From Haloarchaeobius salinus (GTDB taxonomy: Archaea; Halobacteriota; Halobacteria; Halobacteriales; Natrialbaceae), in assembly GCF_024464185.1 (NCBI RefSeq), contig NZ_JANHAU010000001.1, positions 1,178,001 to 1,242,000 of the forward strand: DNA of 64,000 nt. Direction: 5' to 3'. Made by a program: the position numbers and the translations under genes. The notes below the pieces were generated by a model that saw only the letters and a list, made by a program, of their open reading frames with translations, was not told the origin of the DNA and did not search any database. The stretch's first letter is position 1. Each line of letters starts with the position of its first letter. This document shows positions 1,101 through 56,212 of this stretch, one piece after another.

Positions 1101-1335
1101 TGCAAGGCGCGCGACTGGCGAGCGTACCGAACGGAGTGAGGTCGCGAGCCATTTCGCGCGAGGGATGAGCGAGGGAGCCTGCGACCGAGCGAATCGGCTG
1201 GGGAGGCGTGAGGTGCGGAACGGTTGCGGTCGGGTGTCCCCGTGGGCGAGCCTGCGAGCGAACGGGGGCTCGTCGGACCGCAGGTCCGACGGTGGGACTG
1301 AAAGGGGCGACGGGGCTTTCTGCCTGTTCGTGGTC
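1101..1335. repeat. dispersed intergenic repeat, copy 1
   Basis: This 340-base gap between genes is filled by a sequence that recurs at 8665-8966. Positions 1154-1193 are identical over 40 bases to 8718-8757. The 15-mer GGGACTGAAAGGGGC occurs at 1294-1308 and again at 8798-8812. Both copies open with GCGCGCG(A/G)CTGGCGAG and close with GCTTTCTG(C/G)CTGTTCGTGG. The middle of this copy (about 1240-1292) carries a dyad, GGTCGGACC-like arms around CGTCGGACCGCAGGTCCGACG. Short frames inside it (for example one starting at 1165) look spurious. No transposase or target-site duplication was seen. Confidence 0.75.
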
Positions 1336-1418: not shown

Positions 1419-3077
1419 ATGAGCACGGAGACGGACCCGACGAACTCGGACGCGTTCGAGGCGGTCTGCGAGACGCTCGTGGAGGGCATCCTCGCGGGCG
1501 AGATCGAACGCGAGGACGTCGAGTCCGCGAAGCTCGCGGCCTGCTCCGAGCACAGCGCGCCGAAGGTGCCGAAGAACTCGGAGATACTGGACTACGCTCC
1601 CCAGGACCGCCGCGAGGAGCTGGAGGCAGCCCTCCGGCGCAAGCCCGTCCGGACGGCCTCGGGCGTCTCGCCGGTGGCCATCATGACCTCGCCGCACATG
1701 TGCCCGCACGGGAAGTGCCTCTACTGTCCGGGCGGGCCAGCGTCGGAGTTCGACAGCTCGCAGAGCTACACCGGGCACGAGCCGGCGGCGGCCCGCGGCG
1801 AGCAGAACGACTACGACCCGTACGGGCAGGTGACGTTGCGGCTCGAACAGCTCCGCGAGATCGGCCATCCGGTCGACAAGGCGGAACTCATCCTGATGGG
1901 CGGGACGATGACCGCCCGGAGCCACGACTACCAGGAGTGGTTCGTCAAGCGCGCGCTGGAGGCGATGAACGACTTCGACGTCGACAAGCAGCCCGAACCC
2001 GCAGAGGGCGAGAGCTTCGCGCAGGACCCCGATGAGTACGAGTTCCGGTACCTGGAGGACGTCATCGCGGAGAACGAGACGGCGGACGTGCGAAACATCG
2101 GGACGACGTTCGAGACGAAGCCCGACTGGTGCGACCCCGAGCAGATCGACCGGATGCTCGACCTCGGCGGGACGAAGGTCGAGGTCGGCGTCCAGACGAC
2201 CTTCGAGCGGATCAACCGCGAGATGCACCGCGGTCACGGCGTGCAGGCGAGCGTCGACGCGAACCGGCGGCTCCGGGACGCGGCGTTCAAGGTCGGCTTC
2301 CACATGATGCCCGGCCAGCCGGGGATGTCGAAGGCGATGTGTCTGGAGGACTTCCGGCGGATTTTCGAGGAGGAGCAGTGGAAGCCGGACTACCTGAAGG
2401 TCTACCCGACGCTCGTCGTCCGTGGGACCCGGGTCTACGACTCGTGGTACCGCGACGAGTACGAGCCGCTGACGAACGAGGAGGCGGCCGAACTCGTCGC
2501 GGAGGCGCTGTCGATGGTGCCGAGGTACACCCGCGTCCAGCGCGTCCAGCGCGACATCCCGGCGGACTTCATCGACGCGGGCGTCTGGAAGTCGAACCTG
2601 CGCCAGCTCGCGTGGCAGAAGATGGACGAGCACGGCTGGGACTGCGAGTGCATCCGCTGTCGCGAGGCCGGGATGAACGACGAGGAGCCCGAGAACGTCA
2701 CGCTCGACACCATCACCTACGAGGCCGGCGGCGGGACGGAGCAGTTCATCAGCTTCGAGGACCGCGAGAAGGACCTGCTCGTCGGCTTCTGTCGGCTGCG
2801 GTTCCCGAACGAACCGGTCAGGCGGGAGCTCGAAGACGCCGCGCTCGTCCGCGAGCTCCACGTCTACGGCGACCAGGTCGGTGTCGGCCAGTCGGGCGGC
2901 GACGGTGACCAGCAGCACCGGGGCTACGGCCGGCGGCTTCTGGCGGAGGCCGAGCGCCGCGCCCGGGAAGCCGGCTTCCGGAAGCTCTCGGTCATCTCCG
3001 GTATCGGCGTCCGGCAGTACTACCGCGAGAAGCTCGGCTACCACCAGGACGGGCCGTACGTGAGCAAGCGGCTGTGA
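1419..3077 (+). CDS. elp3: Elp3-type tRNA uridine-34 carboxymethyl-modifying enzyme (radical SAM/GNAT)
   Basis: Archaeal Elp3 uses radical SAM chemistry and acetyl-CoA to build the cm5U-type modification at wobble uridine 34 of tRNA. The radical SAM cysteines are in MCPHGKCLYCPGGPASEFD near residue 95, followed by the family-typical LILMGGTMTAR and GVQTTFERINREMHRGH. The C-terminal GNAT domain has GYGRRLLAEAERRAREAGF and ends IGVRQYYREKLGYHQDGPYV. At 552 residues it is full length. The ATG at 1419 (MSTETDPTN) is preferred over an upstream TTG at 1392, which would add nine non-conserved residues. Other translation-quality genes (rqcH-like, pelA) lie within 8 kb. Confidence 0.96.
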   Translation: MSTETDPTNSDAFEAVCETLVEGILAGEIEREDVESAKLAACSEHSAPKVPKNSEILDYAPQDRREELEAALRRKPVRTASGVSPVAIMTSPHMCPHGKCLYCPGGPASEFDSSQSYTGHEPAAARGEQNDYDPYGQVTLRLEQLREIGHPVDKAELILMGGTMTARSHDYQEWFVKRALEAMNDFDVDKQPEPAEGESFAQDPDEYEFRYLEDVIAENETADVRNIGTTFETKPDWCDPEQIDRMLDLGGTKVEVGVQTTFERINREMHRGHGVQASVDANRRLRDAAFKVGFHMMPGQPGMSKAMCLEDFRRIFEEEQWKPDYLKVYPTLVVRGTRVYDSWYRDEYEPLTNEEAAELVAEALSMVPRYTRVQRVQRDIPADFIDAGVWKSNLRQLAWQKMDEHGWDCECIRCREAGMNDEEPENVTLDTITYEAGGGTEQFISFEDREKDLLVGFCRLRFPNEPVRRELEDAALVRELHVYGDQVGVGQSGGDGDQQHRGYGRRLLAEAERRAREAGFRKLSVISGIGVRQYYREKLGYHQDGPYVSKRL

Positions 3078-50434: not shown

Positions 50435-52651
50435 TCAGGCGAACGAGTTCGCGATCGCGGTGACGGCAGCGTTCAGCACGTCCTCGCGTTCGCCGCGGAG
50501 GAACTCGACGTGCCCGTCACGGCCACCGACGACGCTGACGCCGGCCTCGGGGACCTCGGCGTCGACCGTCTCGCCGAGGTCGCGCACGTCGATGGGGCTG
50601 GTGCTCCGGACGTGGAGTTCGTCCTCGTCGAGGCCGAGGGTGACGAGCTCCGCGTCGGTCTCAGCGCCCTCCTCGCGGTGGAGCGCGTCGAGGAGGAGCT
50701 CGGTCGGCGGGAAGTCGAACCGGTTGCTGAACGCGTCGGCGTCGAGGACCGCGAAGTCGACACCGGCGGCGGTGCGCCGCGAGAGGTTCCGCTGGGCCGT
50801 CTCGACCTCGCGGTCGAGCTTGGTGCGGAACTGCTCGCTCACGTGGCCGGCGAGCCCGTCGGCCGCCTCGAACAGGATGTCCGTGATGAGCTCGCGCTTG
50901 TCCTTGTAGGACTGGTAGAACGCCTCCAGGCCGACGGCCTCGCGGAGCTCGGCGGTCTCCTCGGCGGTGTAGCCGGCATCGCTGGCGAGGTCGGTGTAGG
51001 CCGTGGGGGTGTCCTGCCAGTAGCTCACCGCGGGGAGGTGTGCGAGATCGTCGCGCACGTCGTCGTTGACGTGGGCGGCGACGTTCGCGGCGAGGGCGGT
51101 CGTCGTCACGTCGGTCACGTCGCCCGCGAGGTGCGGGTCGACGATGCCGCCGAGGTCGTCGACGACCTCCTCGTCGGGGTAGCCCGAGTCGACGACGAGG
51201 CACTCGGCACCGTAGACGTCGAGCAGCTCGTAGCCCTCGCGGGACTCGAGCGTGCTGCCGAGGTCGACGAGGACGACGAGCGGGAGCTGCTCGCCGTGGC
51301 GCTCGCGGGCGTCGAGCATGTCGGTCACGTCGTCGGTCGCGGCGTCCATGCCGTAGACGGTGTCGTCGAGCGGGCGGCGCTCGCAGAAGTGGTACTGGGC
51401 GTCCTGGCGCTCGTGCTCCGCCTCGACGAGGGGCAGGACGGCGCGCTCGATGGCGGCACCGGCGACGTAGCCGTCGGCGGTGGCGGTGTGGCGGACGACG
51501 ACGGGGCGGCCCTGGATGACCGCGCGGCGGATCTCGGTCGCCACGTCGCGGATCTCGCCGGCGACGGCGGCGACGGCGTCGTGGTCGGCGAGGAGGTCGA
51601 CGCTCCCGGGGTCGGCCTGCTCGTCCAGCGCGGCGTCCATGCGCTCGGAGACCGCGGTGGCGTCCTCGGCCTCGAGCGTGGTCAGCACCTCGGTCTCGAG
51701 CTGGACCTCGTCGTGGTGGCGCTCGACCTCGCCCTCGAGGCGGACGACGTCGTCGACGTCCACGTCGGGGTAGGCGCGCACGCCGGCCTCCTCGAAGGCG
51801 GCGGCCTCGACGACGCCGGTCTCGTCGCGGATCTCGAAGACGGTCGGGCCGGACGTCTGCCGGATGCTCACGATCTCGCCCTCGATGCGGACGACCTGTC
51901 CGATGAGTTCCGAGACGTTGTCGACCGTGCTGCGTGCGAGCTGGGACTGTTCCCCGGGCTCGGCCGCGTCGTCGTCGGTGTCGGCGGTTTCGTCGGCGGT
52001 AGCGGCGTCGGTCCCGTCGTCGTCGGTGTCGGCGGTCTCCTCGACTGCGTCGACCGTCTCGTCGCTACCCTCGGCCTCGCCCTCTGAGGGCGCTTCCTCG
52101 GTGGCGTCCGACTCGGTCGTCGCGGGGGTCGCGTCACCCTCATCGGGGGTCCGGACCTGCTGCTTCGCGGCGGCGTTCCCGCCGGCCGTGACCGGTTCGG
52201 TCTCCTCCACGTCGGGCTCGTCGGGCTCGTCGGGCTCGTCGGGCTCGTCGGGCTCGTCGGGCTCTTCGGGCTCTTCGGGGAGCTCGTCGCCCTCCGGGGT
52301 CTGGATGAGCTTGCCCCGGAAGTCGGACTCGCGCTGGCGGATGGACCAGCCGAGGTCGACGTTGCCGTTGTCGCGGATGTCGGTGACCTGCACGTAGACG
52401 GCGTCGCCGGAGTCCCAGTCGAGGCTGTCCAGTCGGCGGTCGAGTTCGCTTCGGTGCAGCAGGCCGGTGACGGAGGTACCGATGTCGACGAACACGCCGA
52501 ACTCGGCGAACCCGTCGACCGACCCCTCGTAGTAGCGGCCGGGCTTCAGCTGGTTGGCTCGGTTGCCTTCGAACGTGAAGACGACGTCCTCCTCGTGGCT
52601 CGAACAGATGTGCCCGTCGACGGAGGCACCACAGATGATACAGTTACCCAT
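50435..52651 (-). CDS. DHH/RecJ-like protein with zinc motif, S1 and OB domains
   Basis: A 738-residue protein. It opens with a zinc motif (MGNCIICGASVDGHICSSHE), then an S1 RNA-binding domain (about 35-110; GFAEFGVFVDIGTSVTGLLH). A highly acidic linker (about 115-240) includes the (DEP)n run described separately. An OB-fold (about 245-320) has GQVVRIEGEIVSIRQTSGPT. The DHH region follows, with HTATADGYVAGAAIERAVLP, VVLVDLGSTLESREGYELL and LVVDSGYPDEEVVDDLGG. The DHH triad itself is absent (DSG instead), so catalysis is doubtful. Similar proteins in archaea relate to RecJ/Cdc45. It is followed on this strand by alaX. Confidence 0.82.
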   Translation of the reverse strand: MGNCIICGASVDGHICSSHEEDVVFTFEGNRANQLKPGRYYEGSVDGFAEFGVFVDIGTSVTGLLHRSELDRRLDSLDWDSGDAVYVQVTDIRDNGNVDLGWSIRQRESDFRGKLIQTPEGDELPEEPEEPDEPDEPDEPDEPDEPDVEETEPVTAGGNAAAKQQVRTPDEGDATPATTESDATEEAPSEGEAEGSDETVDAVEETADTDDDGTDAATADETADTDDDAAEPGEQSQLARSTVDNVSELIGQVVRIEGEIVSIRQTSGPTVFEIRDETGVVEAAAFEEAGVRAYPDVDVDDVVRLEGEVERHHDEVQLETEVLTTLEAEDATAVSERMDAALDEQADPGSVDLLADHDAVAAVAGEIRDVATEIRRAVIQGRPVVVRHTATADGYVAGAAIERAVLPLVEAEHERQDAQYHFCERRPLDDTVYGMDAATDDVTDMLDARERHGEQLPLVVLVDLGSTLESREGYELLDVYGAECLVVDSGYPDEEVVDDLGGIVDPHLAGDVTDVTTTALAANVAAHVNDDVRDDLAHLPAVSYWQDTPTAYTDLASDAGYTAEETAELREAVGLEAFYQSYKDKRELITDILFEAADGLAGHVSEQFRTKLDREVETAQRNLSRRTAAGVDFAVLDADAFSNRFDFPPTELLLDALHREEGAETDAELVTLGLDEDELHVRSTSPIDVRDLGETVDAEVPEAGVSVVGGRDGHVEFLRGEREDVLNAAVTAIANSFA
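52211..52273. repeat. 9-base tandem repeat inside the DHH-like gene
   Basis: GTCGGGCTC is repeated six times perfectly at 52211-52264 and once with one change at 52265-52273. On the coding strand it encodes DEP-type tripeptides (DEPDEPDEP). The region is likely to change length between strains by slippage without breaking the frame. Confidence 0.9.
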
Positions 52652-54960: not shown

Positions 54961-56139
54961 TCACTCCTGGAACGTCATCCCCGATATCTCGAATCGAAGG
55001 CCGCCGTCCGGCACCGCCTCGACGTCGACCGTCCAGTCGTGGGCTTCGGCGATCTCCTCGACGATACCGAGCCCGAGCCCGGTCCCGTCGGGCTTCGTCG
55101 AGAAGCCGGTCTCGAACAGCTGCTCCGGTTCCAGCTCGGGGTCCGTCAGACCGACGCCGTCGTCCCGGACGACGATGGTGTCGTCGTCCGACTCGACGTG
55201 GACGCAGAGGTCGTCCGTCGTCACCGTTCCCTCGTCCCCGCGAGCATGTGAGCGGGGGCTCGTCGAGCCGTGCTCGACGGCGTCCTCGTGAGACGAAGTC
55301 GAACGAGGGCTCGTGGAACCGTGTTCCACGGCGTCCCCGCGAGCGTGCGAGCGGGGGCTCGTCGGGCCGTGCTCGACGGCGTTCCGGAACAGGTTCTCGA
55401 ACAGCTGTCCCAGCCGGCTCCAGTCGGCCAGCACGATGCCCGCGGTCTCGTTCTCGAGCGTCGCGCCGTCAGTCTCGACGTTGTTCCACGACTGCGAGAC
55501 GAGCGTCGAGAGCGGCGTCGGCTCCAGCTGTTCGGTTTGCTCGCCCTCGCGTGCGAGGGTGAGCAGCTGTGTCGTGAGCCTGTCCATCCGGTCGAGGCTG
55601 CGCCCTATCTCGTCGAGGTGGTCGCTGTCGGACTCCTCGCGGGCGAGCTGGAGGCTCGTCGTCGCGACGCTGAGGGGGTTCCGCAGGTCGTGCGACACCA
55701 CGGAGGCGAACTCCGCGAGTCGTTCGTTCTGCCGTTCGAGCTCCGCCTCGTGGCTGGCGCGCTCGGTCACGTCGCGGTAGAGCCAGATGTTCGCCTCCCC
55801 GTCCGGCAGGTCGTGGGGGATGTAGGTCCGTTCGAGCGTCCGCCCGTCCGCGAGGACCACCTCCTCGTCGTGGACCGGCTCGCGCCGTTCGAGCAGCTCG
55901 TCGAGGCGGGTGACGAACGCGTCGGGGTCGGCGAACCTGTCGGCGGCGTGTTCCCCGACCGCCTCGCAGTCGGTGCCGATCAGCTCGCCGGGGTCGCTGG
56001 GGATGTCGAGCAGCTCGCAGAGGCGGTCGTTGACGAGGAGTATCTCCCTGGCGGCGTCCTCGATGAGCACGCCCTCCGGCAGGTGCTCGACCAGCGTCTC
56101 GAGGACGAGGTCCGAGGACTCCAGGGAGCTGTCGGTCAT
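54961..56139 (-). CDS. PAS-domain sensor histidine kinase with repeat insertion after the N-box
   Basis: From ATG at 56139, 392 residues, no membrane helix. A PAS domain occupies about 10-128 (EHLPEGVLIEDAAREILLVN). The HisKA helix has phospho-acceptor His150 in FASVVSHDLRNPLSVATTSL. The ATPase has the N-box LFENLFRNAVEHG (248-258), G1 VVRDDGVGL and G2 DGTGLGLGIVEEIAEAHDWT. Residues 254-302 are three near-copies of AVEHG(P/S)TSPRSHARGD, inserted right after the N-box, which is unusual for this ATP-binding domain. No response regulator gene is adjacent. Confidence 0.92.
   Translation of the reverse strand: MTDSSLESSDLVLETLVEHLPEGVLIEDAAREILLVNDRLCELLDIPSDPGELIGTDCEAVGEHAADRFADPDAFVTRLDELLERREPVHDEEVVLADGRTLERTYIPHDLPDGEANIWLYRDVTERASHEAELERQNERLAEFASVVSHDLRNPLSVATTSLQLAREESDSDHLDEIGRSLDRMDRLTTQLLTLAREGEQTEQLEPTPLSTLVSQSWNNVETDGATLENETAGIVLADWSRLGQLFENLFRNAVEHGPTSPRSHARGDAVEHGSTSPRSTSSHEDAVEHGSTSPRSHARGDEGTVTTDDLCVHVESDDDTIVVRDDGVGLTDPELEPEQLFETGFSTKPDGTGLGLGIVEEIAEAHDWTVDVEAVPDGGLRFEISGMTFQE
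55236..55382. repeat. triplicated 48-51 base unit inside the histidine kinase gene
   Basis: Three tandem units: 55236-55283 (48 bases), 55284-55334 (51 bases) and 55335-55382 (48 bases). The outer two differ at only three positions; the middle one is more diverged. Each holds a dyad such as GAGCACGGCTCGACGAGC-type arms. On the plus strand, the unit GAGCGGGGGCTCGTCGGGCC resembles the dyad part of intergenic repeat copy 1 (GAACGGGGGCTCGTCGGACC, 1259-1278). Confidence 0.88.
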
Positions 56140-56212
56140 GGAACACCGGTTCGGCACGGAGCCGAATAACCGTTCTGACCGTCGGGCCGAGAAAAGCCGC
56201 CAGCGAGGAGCG

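Follow-up and report, generated by a model that had tools for sequence, protein, structure and literature searches.

Most known cases of palindromic elements inside protein genes come from Rickettsia and Wolbachia; one further example is from a methanogen. The elements of these two bacterial genera are short and non-autonomous and are found in intergenic DNA as well as in frame within unrelated housekeeping genes (PMC10969869, PMC2996958); those of Rickettsia (RPE) are about 150 bp long (PMC10969869). Coding palindromic repeats of Methanocaldococcus jannaschii are mentioned in PMC2996958, which cites Suyama et al. (2005) for them. REPs are palindromes of 20–40 bp, tagged at one end by GTAG or CGTC. 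Intragenic members of both the GTAG and the CGTC superfamily lie partly in genes, including those for tRNA synthetases and DNA repair, and the CGTC REPs have no known transposase (PMC3733652); no word starting with "halo" occurs in the main text of that paper. For haloarchaea, PMC3119063 describes the PATEs and small mobile repeats of Haloquadratum, which are transposase-free and cause no target duplication, some of them being 52 bp long. According to the same paper, PATEs are related to IS605 ends and have near-terminal palindromes, and SMR-A, of ~110 bp and with terminal inverted repeats, inserts into other mobile repeats.

A repeat in a sensor histidine kinase gene of Haloarchaeobius salinus very probably belongs to a haloarchaeal family of non-autonomous, dispersed DNA elements of 45–58 nt, which form two hairpins and insert in genes as well as between them. 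Like the RPE, this family is dispersed and palindromic, has intergenic copies as well as in-frame copies in unrelated genes, and has empty sites. By analogy, it may be regarded as the haloarchaeal counterpart of the Rickettsia palindromic elements, the likeness being one of kind. Unlike the RPE, it measures only 45–58 nt, has two separate hairpins with strongly covarying stems, prefers GAC|GCC-like sites, grows in tandem repeatedly at one protein motif, and belongs to a different lineage. With the M. jannaschii repeats, as far as PMC2996958 describes them, it shares an archaeal host, palindromes and coding potential, but the host belongs to a different archaeal class. A REP consists of one palindrome tagged by GTAG or CGTC; the present element forms two hairpins, and its hairpin B differs at the foot from copy to copy. 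Like the PATEs and small mobile repeats, it lacks a target duplication (at Elp3), and like SMR-A it inserts into another repeat; in-frame protein insertions, in contrast, are not reported for PATEs or SMRs in the passages of PMC3119063 consulted. A MITE would have terminal inverted repeats and often a target duplication; here hairpin A is unlike hairpin B, a long terminal inverted repeat is lacking, and no duplication is seen in Elp3. A short GTCCC/GGGAC match appears at the intergenic copy only when flanking bases of its host repeat are included. No earlier description of the two-hairpin family was found in the open-access literature searched, and priority is not certain.

The kinase gene and its repeat units

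The window analysed here is a stretch of 64,000 nt of the H. salinus genome. On its minus strand, positions 54961..56157 hold an open reading frame for a sensor histidine kinase of 398 amino acids with PAS, HisKA (residues 147–205) and HATPase_c domains (Pfam matches: HATPase_c 1.4e-15, HisKA 9.7e-14, PAS_4 8.5e-9). The N-box, ENLFRNAVEHG, is encoded at 55366..55398 (minus strand). Immediately after it, at 55234–55380 on the same strand, lies an array of three in-frame units of 48, 51 and 48 nt, where the first-pass annotation had noticed three repeats, and the HATPase_c match begins at residue 305, after this insert. Unit 1 starts with the 15 nt that encode the AVEHG of the N-box, and it is the left arm of hairpin B that encodes AVEHG, in line with the idea that each unit re-creates the end of the N-box.

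Unit 1 (48 nt, AVEHGPTSPRSHARGD, 55333..55380, minus strand) matches the covariance model described below with 70.5 bits; its hairpin B (~55360–55378) contains one A-C mismatch, and its hairpin A lies at ~55335–55356. Unit 2 (51 nt, AVEHGSTSPRSTSSHED, 55282..55332, minus strand) scores 59.5 bits, and unit 3 (48 nt, AVEHGSTSPRSHARGD, 55234..55281, minus strand), in which both hairpins are perfect, 73.8 bits. The peptide AVEHG(P/S)TSPRSHARGD, previously ascribed to all three units, is found in two of them, units 1 and 3; the middle unit of 51 nt differs and reads PRSTSSHED.

Among the kinases retrieved for comparison, no clear one-to-one orthologue of this protein was found. An AlphaFold model of its catalytic part (43 sequences, mean pLDDT 79.4) has the N-box helix at residues 107–124 of the modelled fragment, a segment without secondary structure at 125–178 (pLDDT ~50), and the next strand from 179. 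The repeat is predicted by this model to be a flexible, disordered loop behind the N-box helix, in line with the loop-type insert proposed earlier; such a loop does not mean that kinase activity is unaffected.

Elsewhere on the minus strand of the window, at ~52190–52300, there are some 5–6 copies of a tandem 9-bp repeat (GACGAGCCC), whose translation would be an acidic DEP repeat. They are the source of several near matches to the core pattern treated in the next section.

Two-hairpin fold and intergenic copies

Two adjacent hairpins, A and B, are predicted for each of the three kinase units and for the intergenic consensus, with fold z-scores near -3. Hairpin B has a stem of ~8 bp and a loop of usually 2–4 nt, and hairpin A a stem of at least 6 bp and a longer loop. 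In the coding orientation of unit 3, B is GTCGAGC-ACG-GCTCGAC (VEHGST) and A is CCCCGC...GCGGGG. The B stem of unit 2, GTGGAAC-ACG-GTTCCAC, keeps VEHGST through synonymous paired changes. Inside proteins, the element adds ~15 to 19 amino acids.

The intergenic core quoted in the first-pass annotation lies at ~1260–1280 of the window. The core GGGGGCTCGTCGG has 14 matches in the 3.85 Mb genome of H. salinus (reversed control: 0), of which 11 belong to one intergenic element and one to the kinase. Over 59 genomes, the exact core pattern is too specific and matches only this genome and one other (G019). A strict AVEHG-to-AVEHG DNA pattern, applied to 20 relatives, misses even the array of the window, and a palindrome pattern and a covariance model were used instead. 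The model was trained on 50 different kinase units of 48 nt, the majority of them from other species; as a few units of the H. salinus genome are in the training set, kinase matches are not independent, whereas intergenic matches are. With this kinase-only model, intergenic copies score 32–37 bits; the background does not exceed 17.0 bits in the window and 14.3 bits in 72 kb of GC-rich bacterial DNA. The 58-nt intergenic copy of the window (1236..1293, minus strand) forms two hairpins like the kinase units and reaches 37.0 bits, the next best score elsewhere in the window being 17.0. By fold and covariance score, the likeness between kinase units and intergenic copies extends beyond the GC-rich core and spans the whole unit of 48–58 nt, and copies outside genes in many genomes share the two-hairpin fold. 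An Rfam search with the element gave no match.

Distribution and host genes

Covariance-model matches at E 5e-4 or better are dispersed over 39 of the 59 sampled Halobacteria genomes and 26 of their 32 genera. A pattern scan of GTDB genomes found the unit in Natrinema, Natrialba, Halorubrum, Haloferax, Halosimplex, Halorussus, Halorientalis and others, nearly always at kinase N-boxes. The number of units per kinase ranges from one to at least seven; one array consists of seven near-identical units (L082). Bacterial matches of the same scan form no array and were discarded as chance. A nitrite/sulfite-reductase-like match (L149, L158, L138; ADEHGSGEVRLTQRQN) was also rejected, as a conserved protein motif matching by chance.

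The host range of the element is far wider than kinases. When 80 further matches were sorted by open frame and codon score, ~31 lay at kinase N-boxes, ~20 in frame in other proteins, and ~29 had no recognised gene; among these 29, a few are probably low-scoring kinases. In-frame hosts include the tRNA synthetases IleRS (L253), GluRS (L226) and TrpRS (L125), as well as Elp3 (L152), biotin protein ligase (L133), PurA (L126), Kae1 (L122), acyl-CoA dehydrogenase (L239), acyl-CoA synthetase (L252), a CbiE-like protein (L224), a thiamine-diphosphate enzyme (L249) and a glutamine amidotransferase (L225); enzymes of the metallo-beta-lactamase fold (L208, L284, L216) carry inserts at two or more different sites. 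All these names come from reading the sequences, and those of Elp3, biotin ligase, PurA and Kae1 alone are backed by database matches. The in-frame copies in non-kinase proteins occur in both orientations. The reading frames remain open, and some of the host genes, such as those for IleRS and GluRS, are normally essential, which suggests that the host proteins are still functional. The finding of whole-codon inserts in genes is partly forced, because a frame-breaking copy would count as intergenic; outside genes, the length is not a multiple of three in 11 of 23 copies.

Three single cases stand apart. In Natrinema thermotolerans (AOIR01000063.1, L064), a pair of units lies in a protein without a Pfam match and reads AVEHGSTSPDSQARQD without an N-box, which suggests transfer of a kinase-type unit. 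The contig JAHENZ010000221.1 (L109), labelled as the bacterium Salinivenus, encodes a haloarchaeal-type kinase with two units; it is probably mis-binned and possibly a case of transfer. In H. salinus itself, an incomplete and diverged copy of the hairpin repeat (G000:C2:69126–69166, L029) is located directly 3' of the end of an apparent tRNA-Arg gene.

Filled and empty sites

Insertion of the element as a unit can be read where filled and empty versions of a site are available. The elp3 gene of one relative (G005) is filled with a 48-nt in-frame insert, TTCCCGAGC[GTTGCC...GACGGT]GACCCGGTT. Empty counterparts are TTCCCGAACGACCCGGTT in G004, TTCCCGAACGACCCGGTA in G002 and TTCCCGAACGAACCGGTC at 2802 of the window, where the elp3 gene (1419..3077, plus strand) has the empty site TTCCCGAAC|GAACCG at 2802–2816. 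The filled and empty Elp3 sites reveal no target duplication, and this rules out a fixed 3-bp duplication. The inserts in Elp3 and PurA fall in alignment gaps relative to the solved Elp3 and PurA. An enzyme of the metallo-beta-lactamase fold reads GAC[48 nt]GCC in G051 and GAC GCC in five relatives. The acyl-CoA dehydrogenase insert is 48 nt long in G049 and G152, appears in a 51-nt version in G248, and is absent in G066, G140, G018 and G190. For IleRS, three relatives read G(A)DF(D/E)GGTVYVDT without the insert; the insert-bearing locus was not re-matched by motif. The biotin ligase case is weaker because the insert sits in a loop whose length varies among relatives.

The intergenic copy at 1236–1293 is itself hosted by a second dispersed intergenic repeat (1190..1312, plus strand), which ends in GGTGGGACTGAAAGGGGC. 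Its filled form, ...CGGGT[GTCCCC...GACGGT]GGGACTGAAAGGGG, contrasts with the empty form ...CGGGTGGGACTGAAAGGGG, and the genome contains ~9 filled and at least 10 empty copies. This host repeat (1190–1312 in the window; L031–L040) exists in roughly 20 or more copies and represents a landing site for the two-hairpin element.

Oriented alike, the flanks of 20 insertions give the consensus G16 A16 C19 | G18 C14 C16, which partly reflects haloarchaeal codon bias and for which most of the 20 boundaries come from model hits and not from empty sites that were read. This consensus equals the junction between tandem units. In four insertions, the left arm of the element is a close match to the sequence just downstream (12/12 in L211; 11/12 in L224, L225 and L208). 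This match suggests homology or recombination at the junction; it also fits a duplication, and the exact boundary is blurred in such cases.

Covariation of the stems

In 50 distinct units, 94.6% of stem cells are paired (79.9% when shuffled), with 112 double changes against 42.6 in the shuffles; the covariation score is 0.373, compared with 0.128 after shuffling. None of 500 shuffles reached these values, with the caveat that related sequences can exceed shuffles. The VEHGST pattern is present in 247 of 391 genomes, its reversed control in none of them. At 150 listed sites, third codon positions covary between V and S (odds ratio 59, p 5e-20) and between E and G (odds ratio 18, p 3e-12), relatedness being ignored, and unpaired synonymous control positions yield p 1.0 and 0.11. 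Perfect palindromes number 91 at the VEHGST sites, where 30.5 are expected. In hairpin A, the variable codon is exactly complementary to its partner in 38 of the 50 units (shuffle mean 6.2), and here pairing alters the amino acids: CGG/CCCGAG gives PRS..PED, GAC/CGTCAG gives PDS..RQD, and GCT/CAGCAG gives PAS..QQD. Stem mismatches on the coding strand comprise 6 of the G-T type (G-U in RNA) and 21 of the A-C type, against 29 and 45 expected. As G-T is not favoured over A-C, folding of the kinase mRNA is unsupported and a cause at the DNA level is preferred. The hairpins are thus very probably kept at the DNA level, synonymous codons and amino acids changing in compensating pairs.

An alternation of stem types in neighbouring units is not significant (57 of 97 differ, 48.6 expected, p 0.11); p 0.007 is obtained only when three homogeneous arrays are dropped, and alternation is not claimed.

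Probable copying between kinases of one genome

Unit 2 of the window is identical (51/51) to the single unit of another H. salinus kinase (G000:C1:95822–95872), and the flanks of the two are only 59–65% identical. A further kinase array of this genome (G000:C3:33361–33507) has the same order of A hairpins as the window array (55234–55380). Its B-stem types are swapped in all three units, both arms together. The identical unit and the shared A order are read as recent copying of units between kinases. The earlier proposal of a palindromic element that moves or expands inside genes agrees with the intergenic and in-frame copies, the filled and empty sites and the identical unit in diverged kinases, except that the element has two hairpins and not a single dyad.

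Proposed mode of spread and competing explanations

The sites of entry would be similar to the junction of two units joined end to end, which in one orientation reads GAC|GCC. Between genes its length would be free; within genes only frame-keeping copies would persist, in either orientation and usually as a flexible insert. In kinases, where the left arm of hairpin B encodes AVEHG, a copy inserted ahead of the native AVEHG would supply the final residues of the N-box anew, as would every additional unit, leading to in-frame tandem growth. Because the left arm can encode AVEHG and each insertion restores the motif, we infer that the N-box is a favoured home. The conserved N-box could also supply the homology for copying units between paralogous kinases. 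Moving or copying would require the hairpin, either by hairpin-assisted template switching and recombination or by an IS200/IS605-type transposase acting in trans. The hairpins would be maintained by template-switch correction of imperfect palindromes or by the hairpin requirement of such a transposase. Against this explanation stands that movement was not seen and that no autonomous partner or transposase came to light incidentally; because no partner element was met, slightly more weight is given to template switching. The kinase units could also have spread among kinases by gene conversion alone.

Plain tandem expansion in kinases, by slippage or unequal crossing-over with gene conversion between N-boxes, would treat the intergenic likeness as incidental. 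The tandem arrangement, the near-identical array of seven units and the units common to paralogous kinases agree with it, and units may have spread among kinases chiefly in this way. Taken as the whole explanation, plain expansion is improbable and contradicted by units in Elp3, IleRS, acyl-CoA dehydrogenase and other proteins, in both orientations and with some empty sites read, by the recovery of intergenic copies with a kinase-only model, and by compensatory stem changes, which slippage does not predict. It is likewise rather unlikely that the AVEHGSTSP... peptide is a selected functional module of haloarchaeal kinases, its palindrome serving mRNA structure or regulation. Such a module would fit the large share of sampled copies behind the N-box and the many genomes with VEHGST-type sites, but the amino acids follow the DNA palindrome, as in the three hairpin A variants, insertions occur in unrelated enzymes in both orientations, and the missing excess of G-U over A-C does not favour mRNA folding.

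The stable hairpins with their low fold z-scores and the intergenic copies could also point to a REP-like regulatory or terminator RNA whose gene-internal copies are accidental. This reading, which does not exclude mobility, is held to be improbable given the lack of an Rfam match and the ~20 of 80 sampled copies in non-kinase genes. An artefact of GC-rich, GAC/GCC-rich haloarchaeal coding sequence is barely credible: the 13-nt core with at most two mismatches does yield 29 weak matches in the window against 13.8 expected, but the reversed patterns are absent from all 391 genomes, GC-rich bacterial DNA stays at low scores, and exact filled and empty sites exist.

Implications

A dispersed two-hairpin DNA element is the explanation preferred here. 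A bolder version of it is tentative and rather doubtful, namely that the element is still active, copies via a DNA hairpin, rewrites its stems as complementary pairs, and repeatedly builds in-frame protein loops, including those in essential tRNA synthetases and the tandem loops at kinase N-boxes. A family that is widespread in haloarchaea and whose filled and empty sites can be read would allow tests of movement and of protein reshaping; species of Haloferax, a genetically tractable host group, carry units. It is unusual for a DNA palindrome to make amino acids covary. In haloarchaea, loops of kinases and other enzymes may be footprints of insertion, which matters for annotation, alignment and phylogeny.
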